Source: Bugula neritina (lineage: Eukaryota > Bryozoa > Gymnolaemata > Cheilostomatida > Bugulidae). Taken from it: DNA of 64,000 nucleotides. Location of the stretch: contig OZ037772.1 in the NCBI GenBank assembly GCA_964035545.1, positions 9,211,150-9,275,149 on the forward strand, in the 5' to 3' direction. A program made the position numbers and the translations under genes. The notes beneath the pieces were generated by a model, which was given only the letters and a program-made list of their open reading frames with translations, did no database searches and was not told the DNA's origin. Position 1 is the first letter of the stretch, and the number at the start of each line of letters is the position of its first letter. Positions 25,506 to 57,126 of this stretch are shown in pieces.

Positions 25506-25616
25506 TCATATCAGACGCTCTTCGGGAGGCGGCTTTAACATTCCCGACATTTGTAAGTTGGGGCCGAGAATTTCATGTCGGCTAGGACTGTAGCGCCCCC
25601 TGGTTGCTCGTTTTCT
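25506..25616 (-). CDS. crb: Crumbs cytoplasmic tail (part of last exon)
   Basis: Encodes a stop-transfer RRKR and a 37-residue tail. The juxtamembrane FERM-binding motif is GRYSPS, and the end is the PDZ-binding ERLI before a TGA at 25506-25508. In Drosophila Crumbs the motif is GTYSPS, with threonines 6 and 9 reported as aPKC targets. Here the first threonine (ATRG) is kept and the second is replaced by arginine. Confidence 0.92.
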
Positions 25617-28600
25617 TCTGACCATAACAATGAAAATAACCACGCCTACAATAGACATAACCACGCCTACAATAGATATTACTACGCCTACAATAGATAT
25701 TACTACGCCTACAACAGATGTTACTACGCCTACAATAGATATTACTACGCCTACAATAGATATAACTACGCCTACAACAGATGTTACTACGCCTACAATA
25801 GATATTACTACGCCTACAATAGATATTACTACGCCTACAATAGATATTACTACGCCTACAATAGATATTACTACGCCTACAATAGATATTACTACGCCTA
25901 CAAAAGATAACCAGCTGATATACTAAGGATTGAGGGTTAACACCAATATAAATTCTGCTAACATTAGTAACAAAACGTCAAGGCTGGTCAAGCAGTGATC
26001 ACATGACCCAATGTTTGATAAGATTAATCGTTGCCTCATCAAGTTAATAGGAAACACAACTCCCATAACAAATCCAGAAACTTCAATTTTACTAGAAGAG
26101 CTATTCATGAATTTCGAGGAAACCACTTTTTCAAAAGTGAGTAGAATGGAATCCCTACAATACTCTGGATAAGATAACCCCTAATATATCACACGGAGTT
26201 CAGCAAGGTTAACAAAATTAGGTCGCCACTCTGTAGAAAAACTCCACTCATTCACGAAACTACTATTAGTTCTATAAAATACGCGTGAATCAATAGAAGA
26301 GAGTATCTCACTATCAAAAGTCGAGATTGAGAAACTGGACGCTGACACAGAGGCAGCGCTTGTTAGGACACGTACCGACTATAATGGCGATGATGACGCA
26401 GGCAGCAATGGGCACAGCAATGTACACAGCCAGATAGGGATCGGCAGCTGCAAAGAGAAGACAACAAATAAAAAGACGGCAATTAATAAACGCATAGAAA
26501 ATATGCTTGAGAATAGTTAATAAAACTATTGGACGAAGCTAATTTGAAGAGTTGATTAAAACAGACACTAACTCAAACCCTTGAGTGGCTTTTAATGTTT
26601 AACTGATTAGCCACGTATAATTAGACAATTAGAGAGTGGACAACTCTCAAAGAAGGCATACACAATACAGGGGCAGATAATCTCATTAGATAACTTCTTG
26701 TTAGATAACTTCAAAATTTGAAAAAGAATTGTATTCAAGGAATACAAACATCAGCATATTTGTCACGTTTCAGCATTCAACAAATATTCAGTTATTCTAC
26801 AGAATTATTAACATGATAAATTTAAAGAGAAAATATTAGCTTCAAATAAAAACATCAAATCTATGAGAAAAATTTACAAAAAAACCACTAGTAAACTACA
26901 CGGCTACAAGGGGAGGATAACTACTACTAATATTCTTTGACTGCAAGACATAGTCTAAGGTCTAGAGAACTTACTAGTCGTATCAAGGGGGCTCTCGCAC
27001 GTCGTCCCTGTATACTTGCTGTCACATTGACAAGTGAACCCTAAGGATACTGTGCTGTTACTGCACACACCGCTGTTGGAACAGGGGTTGGAGGTACAAG
27101 GGTCCATCACTCCACCTACAAACAGCAACATAATTGTCACACACTCTTTCCAACACACTGCAGCATGTACATTGTAGTTCTGGTGAGATTTGGTGAAACA
27201 CATTTGCTAATCAAAGGGAGTAGCGTAGTCTAGGAGTTAGAGCGTTAGCCTAGTAAGCACCGAGGTCATGAGTTCGAACCCGGACAAAGGCCATTGGTGA
27301 TGTTAGGAAGAGCATCCAGTCATAATTGCTCCTGTGCCTCATTTGAAAAAGTCCTTAGCCCAATTTAACAAAAACCCTTTCTATCAGGGGTTTCTCGCAG
27401 GGATGGTGACTATAAACGTCCTGGATTTTTTTTATTTGCTAATTATTATCTCAGTTTGGCTAAATCCAAATATATTAGCTGGTTTGTTATGATAAAACCT
27501 AATTGATATATATTTTCCAGGTAAATTACCTGCAATAGCATTTCAGCTAGGGAAATAGTAGTTTGTTCAACATAATATATACTTATGGTTAGTGCATTAA
27601 TTATTAAAAGTAGTGCATTAGTTAATATATTTAATGCATTAGTTATTAGAATTATTGCACCAATATACTTAATGCATTAGTTATTATAGTTGGTGTATGA
27701 GTTATTAAAATCATTGCACTAGCTATCATGATTGTACATTAGATAGAGTTGTTGCTCACTGAACACTGAACGGCAGCGTATACTCACAGTTGCTGCCGAG
27801 ATAGTTATCTTTACAGACACAGTCAGCACCCGACGGCGTGTTCTCACAGCTGACGCTGTTCTGATCCTCACAGAATTCTTGCTCTGAACAAAAATCTCTT
27901 GTCTCGCAGTTCAGCCCAATATAACCTATAAATAGACACAGTAGTCCGATATAATCTATAAATAGACATAGTATGTCTATTATAATCTATGAATAGACAC
28001 AGTAGTTCAATATAATCTATAAATAGTACAGTATGTCCATTATAATCTATAAATGGAAACAGTATGTCTAACATGATCTATAAATAGACATAGTATGTTC
28101 AGTATAATCTATAAATAGAGGATAACTGTAAAAACGCATCCTACACATAAACAAAAGCATACTCAAGACACCTAATTAATAAAATATTAACAGATACAAA
28201 TTGGAAAAAAAACTCAACTTATTCAATTTGATTTTTTAAATAAAACACATCACGCCTAAGATATCTCGAGATAAAAAGTGTCTGATATTCCATAAATAAT
28301 TCCTCTATATCAGTGAAAACTTGCTTCATTAAATATGATTAATGAAATATATATTATATAACACAATAAATATATTATAGTACCAAACTACCACCACTAC
28401 CATTACTGCTACAGTTCCTGTTACTACAGTTGCCTGTTCTACTACTGCTACAATTACTATACTACCGCTGCCTGTACTACTACCCCACTGTCTCTACTAT
28501 ACCCGCTGTCTCTACTCTACCGCTGCCCAAACTGCTAGGTGCTCAGTGTACACCAAAACAATGTCTATGAATGAATCACCAACCAGCACTTAACAAACAC

Positions 28601-34600: not shown

Positions 34601-36389
34601 AAAATATATTAAAAGTGTAATTAAAGAGACAAACCTTTTGGTCATAATGTAAAATGGCTGCTGTGGAAATAAAATTAGATACGAATTTATCAAAACTCAG
34701 TTGAATCTGAAGTCACAGTAAAGAAAATCATTTTAATTCATGACCAAAAGTTTGACCATTCTAACGCGTATTATAACACGCTTCTTGTAATAGGTTATAT
34801 TGCGAAAAGCAAAACTATAAGAAACTTGCTGCCTTGTTGACTAGAAATGTACGTAAAAGCAAGACTCAACAGCAACTGTTTTCACAAGAAAGCTAAGGAC
34901 AGACAACTACCACAGAGATCCAAACACCACCACGACAAAGCTATGGAAACCCCGCAATCATGGTAAGCAAGCATAGTAAAACAACTCCGACTACCTCTAA
35001 GTAGATAACTATTCGACATTTAGAAGCCATTTTGAAATCTCTCAAATACTCGCACAAGACAAGATTTGCTCTAACAATACACGGAATAAAAAGCTCAGCA
35101 GGTGTTAGTGACAGAAAGTGTGCGGGAGTTAACATAGCTTAGAATTGGTTACATAAAGTCGCTTAGCCAGCAAACTTAGCTACTGCTAGATTAAGGTTAA
35201 GGGTGGGATAAAGCTTAAAGTACCCAGTTAAGGTTATTAGGCAATAAAAGTCAGGAAAGAATATTATAGAAAACAATGTTGTCCTATAATGAACTCACAC
35301 AAGTAAATTAACTTGCATCGTGAGTTTATTATAGTAAATAATAAAAAGTTCAAGAATTGTCTTCCCCAGGATAGACTGAGTTTCTACGGCAACCTACCTT
35401 GGGAGCAGTTGCAGGCGTAGCTGCCTATCGTATCCACACATAGCCCTGAATTCTCACACAAGTCTGCAGTTATATTACATTCATTGATATTCATTTCACA
35501 TTGATCGCCAATAAACCCTGCAAGGTGAAGGTGAAACTACAGTTCAAGGTTATGGAGGTCAAGGTGAACTAAAGGTCAAAGCACAGTTATCAAATAATAT
35601 GATGAGCTGAACACATGCTGGTTAGACAGAGAGAGTAAAAGAAGGCTATTGGCACTGCGGTTTTTGCTTGAGTTTTCCCACAAGAAAAAAGCGCATAACT
35701 CCTTAAAAATTTACAACACGGTAGAAAATAAACAAAAACCGCAGGCTATTAGCAGAGAACTTATTCAAAAATAAAGCCAACTCAAGGAAACAGAGAATAA
35801 AATAGACATGCTTAAGTTCAAGTTAAAAGTAATAAACAGGCAGAGTCCGAGACCGAAAATCAAATAAAGTTCATTCGTTACTGAAACCAAATCAACGATC
35901 CGAGTTGTATGCGAGTTACCTGCTTCTTTTCAACTATCAACTACAACAGCGCAGAGAGTGACAATTCCCAACTAGACAGAGCCAACACCAGTAAACTACA
36001 CGGCACTTTGCTAGAATACAAGTGGGAGAAGATGGGATTGATGGAACTGAACCTTTAGCAAGGATATTGTGAAGCGACGTCAAAAACTAACTTCTGGAAT
36101 GAAAGTTTATGAGGTGCAAAACAATTTCAAATTGCGTTGACATCAGAGATGGGTCGCAGGTAAAAGTATGTTACAGGATATTGCATACCTGTGCCAGTGC
36201 AGTTACAAGTAAAACCACCTTCTAGCTCGGTGCAGTTGCCTCCATTCTGGCAGGAGTCGGGTTGAGAACATTCTAGAATATCTTCAGAACAAACTGTAAC
36301 ATCAGAGACATGTTTATTGGTGACAGAGAGTCAGTAGAATGTCAGCATAGCTAAAGTACTACTGCTCCTGCTACTACTACTACTACTAG

Positions 36390-36421
<32 letters not shown>

Positions 36422-39400
36422 GTACTACCACCAGTACTACTACTACTACTACCACTACTACTACCACCACCACTACCGCTGCTACTACTACCGCTGCTAC
36501 TACTACCGCTACTACTACTACTACTGCTACTACTACTGCTATTACTACTACTACTACCACTACCACTGCCACTACTGCTACTGCTACTACTAACTACTAC
36601 TACTACTACTACTACTGCTACTATTACTGCTACTACTATCACCACTACTACTACTACTACCACTAGTACTACTACTACTACTACTATCACTACTACTACT
36701 ACTAGTACTACTACTACTACTAGTACTACCACTAGTACTGCTACTCCTGCTACTACTGTTGCTACCGCATTCACTCACTATCTCCTGTCCAGAATTCTGT
36801 ACATTGACACGTGAAGCTGCCGTTAGTGTTGGTACAATTTCCGTCATTTTCACAGATGTCAAGGTCACACTCATTGATGTCCACATTGCATGTGCTGTTG
36901 TCTGCCCAGCCTAAAGTAACAAACAGAAGAGACATCATTGTGAACTGCAGGAAAGACAAGCATATACAAAGTATTCTATTAGTAGATGTGAAAAAGGAGA
37001 CAACCCTAGTGCATACAATATAACCCTTAAAGTAGGTTAAACAATTACACATAAAATGCACATTGATACATGGACTGCATTACAATATAGCATACATTGT
37101 ACAGTTAAACTTATAGATATAATATTTACAAAATAATTATTACATTAAAAATATTCAAATATAGACTGAAAACAAAAATATCAATTGACCATACCTTCAT
37201 CGCACACACAGGTGTATTCTAGCGTACCATTCACCCTAGTCTGAGAGCAGTTACCATGGATACAGGGACCATCAACACACGGCCCCTTCTCTTCACATCG
37301 AACCCCTACAAGACACAATCAACCAATCAGAAGTTAGCATGCATTCTGCAAATGCTAACAATCAATGAGACACTATCTAGGGAACAGCCGCGATCTAGGA
37401 GTTAGAGCGTTTGCTTAGGAAACACGAAGTCATGGCCCGGACAAAGACCATTGGTGATGTTAGGAAGAGCATCCAGTCATAATTGCTCCTGTGCCTCATC
37501 TAAATAATTCCTTAGCCCGATTTAATAAAAACCCTTTCCACCAGTTCTCACAGGGATAGTGACTATAAACTTGTTTGAGTTTTTTTATAAGACACCATCT
37601 AACTTCTACACTGGCCTATCAAATCTGTGACTGACCTTCATAAAACTCGTAGCACTCGCAGGACCAGTGAGTAGAGTTGGCGCTGCACACACCACTGTTA
37701 CTACACAGACCATCGGAGCAGGTCGGGGCGGTACAATTAGCCCCCTCAAATCCGTCTGAACAGTTGCATTTGTAGTCTCCTTCCAGCTCTGTGCAGTTCA
37801 TAGTATTCTCTGCCATGCAGAAGTCCAACTCACATTCCTTTACATCCTGAAACATGAGACAACAACTCCAAGTGACATTTCGCTGCATGTAATGGTTTGT
37901 GAAATACCTAGTGTGACGGAGATGTGACAAAAATGTGACCGCTAACAAATAACAAATGAATTACTGGCCGAGCAACATTACGTAATAGCGCAAAGTTTAA
38001 CTTTTGTATCTAAAATGTGAAATATTATTAAAAACAAAGTCACAAATAATTGAAAACATTTGAATATAAACAATGTACAACAGTTTTATTATTAACTAGA
38101 AAAAGTGGAGCTAGACAAGACATAAATTATTACAGAAAATTAAAAGCTAAATTTATTCAACATTAACAGAAGAAAATGTGAAAATATGGTTAAGATACTT
38201 GTAACATAACATCAGCTACTGGTTAAATTATTCGGTTGTGAAGTAAGCCTGAGGTACTCACCACATCACAGGTGGGGCCGGTCCAGCCCGCCCCGCACTC
38301 GCACTCAAACATGTTTATCTGGTCGAGACATGTGCCACCATTTTGGCACGGAGAAATTTCACACTCATCTTGTTCAATGGCACAAGTTGGTCCAGTATAT
38401 CCTGTGTGATACACTTACAGTAGTATATACTGTGTAATACACTTACAACAGTAATATACCTACACTCACAGTATTATATACTTACACTTACAGTAGTATA
38501 TCCTGTGTGATACACTTACAGTAGTATATACTTACACTTACAGAAGATTGCATACACATATTTACTTTGAACCTGCAACTTTCTTAGAATACTAAAATAT
38601 TTTAGGAGTAATCTTCTCTTTAATGTTCTTGCTACTGGGAACTTCCATCACTCAACAAACATACACATAGGCTGCCATATGCACAAGCTGCAAACTACAG
38701 CAAACTTAGCTCTATTTCCTTTAATATCAAGACCTACAATTTCAACTAGAATAAAGCAATCCATATTCCTTATATTTAAATTTTCACATTTGACAACTTT
38801 GGTAACCTTCCAAATATTTAGCCTCCTAACACGCATTCCTATCCTATTATTGAAAAGAAAGCCTCAGTTCTAAGACACCAACCTCCATTGCAGTGGCAGT
38901 ACTGTTCAGGCATCCCATTTTGACATTGGACCCTGGAGGTACTGGTATTGGCGGTACAAATGTCGTTGACAGGCAAAGTTGATACGTCAACCCACTAGAA
39001 ATAGTGATAAATCTAGTGAATTACAGTAGGTTTGTTATTGAAAAGGACAGTGCAGTAATTATTGCACTGTGATTGTCCAGTGCTACAGGAGACCAATCAG
39101 ATTAACTTTCTCTCCCCCTGTTACCTCACCACCCCCCCCCCTTTCTCCTGTCACATCCACCCACTTGTAAATAAAAATTCTAAAATGTAGAAATATACAA
39201 ACATTATTTAGAATGGATTTCAGGGAGCAGCAGGTTAGAGTTTTTGCTTAGTAAACACAAAGTGATGGGTTTGAACCCCAGTAAAGGTCTTTGGTGATGT
39301 TAGGAAGAGTATCCAGTCATAGTTGCTCCAGTACCTCATCTGAATAAGTATTTAGCCGTTTTAACAAAAACCCTTCTATCAGGGGTTTCTCAAAGGGATG

Positions 39401-56500: not shown

Positions 56501-57126
56501 ATGTGCTTTTGGTTTTAACACATGGCAGTTATTGCTTATTGGCTAGGTGAAATTTTTGTTGACCTATGAAAATAATGTTAGTGGTTTCTATTCAGATTTA
56601 CCAGTCTATAATAAATGTAGCAACAGATGGTAACTTCAGCTATGAGCAAATACAGCAACTAGACTATCTGGACAGATGTGTCAAGGAGACGCTTAGACTC
56701 TTCCCACCTGTGTTGAGGTGGGTTATTGTACTAGCAGCTGTGTTAAGGTGGGTTAATATAGTAGCAGCTGTGTTAAGGTGGGTCAATATAGTAGCAGCTG
56801 TGCTAAGGTGGGTTAATATAGTAGCAACTGTGCTAAGGTGGGTTAATATAGTAGCAGCTGTGCTAAGGTGGGTTAATATAGTAGCAGCTGTGCTAAGGTG
56901 GGTTAATATAGTAGCAGCTGTGCTAAGGTGGGTTAATATAGTAGCAGCTGTGCTAAGGTGGGTTAATATAGTAGCAGCTGTGCTAAGGTGGGTTAATATA
57001 CTAGAAGCTGTGCTAAGGTGAGTTAATATACTAGCAGCTGTGCTAAGGTGGGTTAATATAGTAGCAGCTGTGCTAAGGTGGGTTAATATAATAGCATCGC
57101 ATGTAAAATTAACTCAATGCCACACA

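Follow-up and report, generated by a model that had tools for sequence, protein, structure and literature searches.

A 21-bp minisatellite carrying in-frame splice acceptors at the membrane-segment exon of a Bugula neritina Crumbs gene

Introduction

When a minisatellite lies across the boundary between an intron and the exon that completes a membrane helix, so that each of its units supplies a splice acceptor in the same phase, which of the copies is used, and does the number of copies set the length of the protein? The question is raised by a Crumbs gene on the minus strand of a 64,000-nucleotide stretch of the bryozoan Bugula neritina (assembly GCA_964035545.1, contig OZ037772.1, positions 9,211,150 to 9,275,149 of the forward strand), the whole of which is called here the window and provides the coordinates used below. 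A first-pass annotation of this DNA had proposed a protein-length switch built from a repeat, and had taken such an arrangement to be new. The answer that we hold to be probable is that the array is a junction minisatellite of the type named "mirage" in amphioxus, in which the exon-proximal copy is mainly used and which is nearly neutral; we infer the use of the proximal copy and the neutrality from the length of the membrane segment in relatives and from parallels in a P450 gene and in two EGF exons.

The Crumbs Gene and Its Junction Array

The features around the junction are the following.

26376..26447, minus strand: exon 14 of Crumbs, in which the membrane helix begins; its borders, cag/CTGCCG and G/gtacgt (the slash marks the splice site), are read directly, and it is in frame with exons 13 and 15
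25646..26375, minus strand: intron 14, predicted at 730 bp under the best explanation, its extent being taken from the membrane-segment length; the array forms its 3' third
25506..25645, minus strand: exon 15 with the exon-proximal acceptor, coding for the last membrane residues and a cytoplasmic tail ending in ERLI, followed by the stop; the tail matches Drosophila Crumbs
25642..25909, minus strand: 21-bp minisatellite of 12.8 copies (94% matches, score 473, Tandem Repeats Finder)
25897..25898, minus strand: most distal acceptor of the array, with 25898 as last intron base and 25897 as first exon base; its use would add 84 hydrophobic residues

The identity of the gene, already proposed in the first-pass annotation, is confirmed by the tail encoded in exon 15, which aligns to Drosophila Crumbs (chain 4wsi_X) with an E value of 6.3e-12, and the traits of the family are present, namely EGF repeats, a single membrane segment and a short tail ending in ERLI. 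Exon 14 ends in phase 1 (...ATT ATA GTC G) and, when joined to exon 15 at 25645, reads G/GCGTGGTTATTTTC; the order from exon 14 to the tail is contiguous in a relative, P0002, just as in the window model. An imperfect TAC/GTA triplet array of about 400 bp also lies within the Crumbs gene region (36357-36757).

The array is 268 bp long, some of its units can be told apart, and the few variants that it contains are common to several units. The commonest unit on the minus strand is GGC GTA GTA ATA TCT ATT GTA, which translates as GVVISIV, and each repeat unit bears splice signals: TTGTAG/GC occurs 13 times at a spacing of exactly 21 bp, and 11 units hold a second AG of the form GTAG/T (GCGTAG/TA in ten, GCGTAG/TT in one), so that the array contains 24 AGs, every one of which is open and in the phase that exon 14 demands. 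The two AGs that most closely precede the array, with 25922 and 25914 as first exon bases, break the frame and lead to a stop. The unit spans the end of the intron, the AG and the GC GTN GTN start of exon 15, with the boundary provisionally placed at 25645 on the strength of the membrane-segment length; since it measures 21 bp, its copies are in frame as a matter of course. The resulting ladder begins with 30 charge-free residues at the proximal copy and grows by seven with each unit, up to 114, the acceptors at 25645 and 25897 being separated by 252 nt, that is 84 residues. The first-pass annotation had described an array at 25641-25911 with 13 acceptors in phase for exon 14, the same difference of 84 residues and a helix of about 29 residues from the copy at 25645; all of this stands, with a slight undercount (11 additional AGs are in frame) and a charge-free stretch one residue longer.

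The genome contains 18 copies of the 16-mer TGTAGGCGTAGTAATA, spread over four places (C1, C2 and two on C8). The unit was considered as a dispersed element and rejected as such, given that TAG-rich arrays elsewhere seem to have a composition in common and not to represent a single mobile repeat. Rfam and tRNA scans gave no matches, nor did the phage and plasmid collections.

Membrane-Segment Length in Relatives

The length of the membrane segment is the property on which the choice of acceptor would act, and it was compared among Crumbs-type proteins, taken as the best 120 of 123 from a database search. The set submitted to parsing comprised 121 database proteins (including P0003, a non-Crumbs match) and the window model, 103 of which were parsed and 19 proved unparsable; the stretch was measured from the last charged, amide or His residue to the basic tail motif. 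With the window model left out, the charge-free stretch is 25-31 residues long in 94 of the 102 parsed relatives and exactly 27 in 64 of them, many of these proteins being closely alike (visibly so for 32), so that the 102 are not independent cases. The exceptions measure 17 (P0069), 23, 33, 34, 35, 35, 40 and 63 (P0001) residues. Only the exon-proximal copy, with 30 residues, falls within the 25-31 range; the next copy already gives 37. The relative P0002 (142 residues), which presumably comes from spliced RNA, is continuous from an EGF repeat to the tail, with a stretch of 28 residues between them, and contains no array.

The longest exception, P0001, is of particular relevance, as it carries an array of its own. 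This protein of 100 residues, predicted on one metagenome contig of 2,528 bp, shares 39 identical tail residues with the window Crumbs, and its tail is preceded by some nine hydrophobic units resembling GVVIYIV, of which one is only six residues long; these units differ from those of the window, and the predicted start falls inside the array. As the first-pass annotation had implied, then, array content appears to turn over between individuals or species, judging from these two arrays before an identical tail. No charged residue was noticed among the P0001 unit variants, a weak indication, since just 15-25% of the non-synonymous single-base changes open to codons of this kind yield a charged, amide or His residue or a stop. 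Among viral contigs, nine pattern matches for P0001 were obtained and none was a relative.

Other Junction Arrays in the Window

The window holds three more arrays that carry splice sites, two in the Crumbs gene itself and one in a P450 gene.

27916..28119, minus strand: second acceptor-carrying Crumbs array, units of 30/31 bp, TTTATAG/RTTATA (Tandem Repeats Finder, splice-frame reading)
38394..38532, minus strand: third acceptor-carrying Crumbs array, units of 28 bp, CACAG/GATATAC (EGF match, E 1.1e-8)
56708..57096, plus strand: donor-carrying array, 13 units of 30 bp (AAG/GTGGGT type), located where an exon of a CYP3A-like P450 gene ends and used for comparison

In the second Crumbs array, splicing of the exon that ends at 35398 to the proximal copy (27925) would yield the canonical EGF sequence CNCSQGYIGLNC; the exon piece has a Pfam EGF_2 match below the cut-off. 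Its upstream copies behave differently from one another, as the one at 27955 is in frame and open (adding ten residues and an extra cysteine), those at 27986, 28016, 28046 and 28077 shift the frame, and that at 28108 runs into a stop. In the third array the proximal copy (first exon base 38401) completes the EGF pattern C.C..GY.G..C with either of the two upstream donor candidates, 38882 or 41822; the CACAG copies at 38502 and 38429 shift the frame and meet stops, and an AG at 38413, 12 nt upstream, is in frame and open. The P450 array lies 31 kb away from the Crumbs array, of which it is the donor counterpart: its 13 donors, spaced by 30 bp and equally phased, extend from 56718 to 57078, the first 11 open and the last two past a TGA, and when the first of them is taken as the splice site, the product aligns with CYP3A without a difference in length (query 8-67, chain 325-384).

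The exon-proximal copy thus gives the canonical protein in all three cases checked (the P450 and the two EGF exons). An intact protein requires the use of the proximal site in these cases, and the membrane length suggests the same for Crumbs exon 15. The sibling arrays whose upstream copies shift the frame or meet stops indicate, moreover, that junction arrays arise without a coding purpose.

Junction Arrays Elsewhere in the Genome

With a recognised gene, six junction arrays were found in this genome: the three of Crumbs, the CYP3A-like one, one in IRP1 and one in an IP3 receptor. At the IRP1/aconitase locus (L061), 4.1 copies of a 21-bp unit lie across the donor of an exon (E 2e-19), with an in-frame TAA in every unit; at the IP3-receptor locus (L082, 1489-1717), 7.6 copies of a 30-bp unit are found at an exon end (E 4e-24), the unit being composed of the last 15 exon bases and the first 15 intron bases, GTGAGT included. 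Three weaker cases are a Sushi-like exon with 26-bp units (Pfam E 0.0026, below the cut-off), a CWC27-like exon with 21-bp units (E 0.024) and an open frame without family match, with 28-bp units. The IP3-receptor array and these weaker cases were retrieved with a pattern of three strong donors in tandem, which gave 212 matches versus 20 for the reversed pattern; the matches listed cover eight places, four of them without a recognisable exon. Two long donor runs, both mostly perfect AAG/GTGAGT, are C2:2567877-2568639 (about 58 units of 13 bp) and C3:12039565-12040161 (about 28 units of 21 bp), the latter adjoining a CWC27-like exon.

The filtered set of arrays from the window and five stretches of 10 kb numbers 18, four of which carry a junction (25642, the studied array itself, 38394, 56708 and L061:6380); the other 14 were examined in part, and no enrichment of arrays at junctions is claimed. 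The array at 27916 was dropped from this set because its best Tandem Repeats Finder row has fewer than three copies. Of 39 arrays, 25 have a period divisible by three (P 8e-5 for the departure from one third), namely 14 of these 18 and 11 of 21 from other loci, most of the latter fetched by similarity to the Crumbs array. The commonest period over both sets is 21 bp (8 of 39), and within the set of 18 it is preceded by 12 bp (four arrays, and three of 21 bp). That the 21-bp IRP1 array has a stop in each unit implies that a period which is a multiple of three needs no coding role.

Two side observations may be added. In a PALS1-like gene, a relative of which sits together with Crumbs in structure 4wsi, an intron consists mostly of a 15-bp array (L059, 7777-8122) that is pyrimidine-rich on the coding strand and ends within ten bases of the acceptor. 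Most protein-kinase matches on the small contigs, from C11 upward, contain many in-frame TAA and TAG codons and few or no TGA, most of those on C1-C9 being free of stops; the assembly seemingly includes contigs from a ciliate-like associate in which TAA and TAG code for an amino acid.

Choice of Acceptor and Alternative Explanations

The proposed sequence of events is simple. A 21-bp segment across the intron 14/exon 15 junction would have been duplicated in tandem, each copy bringing with it an acceptor and the coding bases with which the exon starts. The spliceosome would mainly pick the exon-proximal copy (first exon base 25645) and thereby preserve a normal membrane helix. If the proximal copy is mainly used, the remaining ones are intronic and would be nearly neutral, free to vary in number; a duplication across a junction may have hardly any effect on fitness while splicing continues at the exon-proximal site. 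Occasional use of an upstream copy would merely lengthen the hydrophobic stretch, and would be tolerated by the reading frame since all AGs of the array are in frame.

The strength of the individual acceptors was estimated by a crude, generic score with weights of our own choosing. The distal copy obtains 2.63, the best value in the array, the proximal copy 2.05, the other GC copies 0.89-2.27 and the T copies -1.89 to 0.26; two AGs outside the array, 25955 (2.80) and 25618 (2.68), lie above the distal copy, so the score discriminates poorly. The furthest copy, singled out in the first-pass annotation for the strongest pyrimidine run, leads by this score within the array and is surpassed just outside it. 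The AG-free run is 21 nt at the proximal site, the longest of the array copies, as the unit directly preceding it no longer has a second AG; it is 15 nt at the internal GC copies and 17 nt at the distal one. By eye, the TAGTAAY of most upstream units resembles a branch-point sequence, and may represent one.

Several observations weigh against predominant use of the proximal copy in a neutral array. The best generic score of the array belongs to the distal copy; simple scanning, in which the first AG past the branch point is taken, gives no advantage to the last of 24 AGs; the stretch measures 33-40 residues in a few relatives, so that a segment longer by one unit (37) would not be without precedent; and the frame of P0001 stays open and hydrophobic across about nine units, as coding use would likewise predict. 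In addition, a control on P450 genes revealed no array on the modelled junctions of 18 introns (20 regions; seven exon pairs are without a model and several models are doubtful), and junction arrays are accordingly not everywhere; at one P450 locus (L080) an array ends four bases before the P450 match, at a junction outside the modelled set.

If several acceptors were appreciably used, whether in a regulated or in a stochastic manner, the resulting Crumbs isoforms would have between 30 and 114 hydrophobic residues, possibly with altered topology and in dependence on allele length. The 24 in-frame AGs, the score of the distal copy and the open frame of P0001 speak for such a length switch, and in human IFI6 transcripts using downstream units of a donor minisatellite have been reported (as cited in PMC4526556); however, the membrane length is narrow in most relatives, the sibling arrays possess frame-breaking or stop-containing units, and this genome has many arrays with a period divisible by three. 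We regard the switch as unlikely, and the proposal of the first-pass annotation is to this extent unsupported. It is rather improbable that upstream acceptors are used at a meaningful level, in which case one allele would give a ladder of Crumbs proteins with the membrane segment growing in seven-residue steps (with intermediate steps through GTAG/T), set by the length of the allele. Constitutive inclusion of the whole array, with the distal acceptor always used and a lineage Crumbs of about 114 hydrophobic residues, would agree with the same score and with the open frame both here and in P0001, but apart from P0001, whose prediction starts inside its array, no parsed relative exceeds 40 residues, and a single-pass receptor with 114 charge-free residues would be a great rarity, as is well established; this reading appears very unlikely. 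That the length of the array is an artefact or a collapse of the assembly is barely credible: tandem arrays are indeed error-prone, and the draft-genome copy of one amphioxus mirage looked aberrantly assembled according to PMC3087553, yet this array is just 268 bp long with some distinguishable units, its copy number being given as assembled, and the independent contig of P0001 has an array ahead of the same tail.

Relation to Known Junction Minisatellites

Splice arrays built from repeats, thought to be new in the first-pass annotation, are of a kind already known, with amphioxus mirages and the human IFI6 donor minisatellite as examples. According to PMC3087553, mirages are minisatellite-like tandem duplications of exon-intron boundaries in Adh3 and in the globins BflGb6 and BflGb9, with a variable copy number, units of 10-72 bp at Adh3 and haplotypes of six versus three units in BflGb6; they reportedly leave regular splicing undisturbed, on the basis of Adh3 data (Canestro et al. 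2002, as cited there) and of the authors' own RT-PCR (reverse transcription PCR), and it has been suggested that new introns can arise through them. The Crumbs array resembles them in that its tandem units span the boundary and multiply the splice signals; it differs in the gene concerned, in having all 24 AGs in frame and in that its exonic part codes for a membrane helix, and splicing was measured in amphioxus whereas here it is predicted from DNA.

In human IFI6 (6-16, G1P3), a minisatellite likewise multiplies a splice site, in this case a donor, and its downstream units are used (Turri et al. 1995, as cited in PMC4526556); extra copies in use are thus reported for these donors, while the Crumbs acceptors are known from the genome. 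Internal tandem repeats at primate exon-intron boundaries, reported in PMC2812944, are also minisatellites sitting at boundaries, with an average unit of 30 bp, and can alter splicing; unlike the Crumbs array, they occur in recent paralogues within segmental duplications and are described as forming novel introns. Among the matches listed in the literature on minisatellites, tandem repeats and splice sites, with most subscription journals outside its coverage, no junction minisatellite in Crumbs was found. A possible length switch aside, the Crumbs array would join this known class of junction minisatellites.

The significance of the locus depends on which copies are used. Should the proximal copy always be chosen, the array would offer a natural test of how the spliceosome selects one acceptor among near-identical, in-frame ones, with parallel genes available in the same genome; should upstream copies be used, the length of a repeat would directly tune a membrane protein, in the membrane segment of a polarity receptor. 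Under either reading, the genome of B. neritina looks a good source of mirage-type junction repeats.
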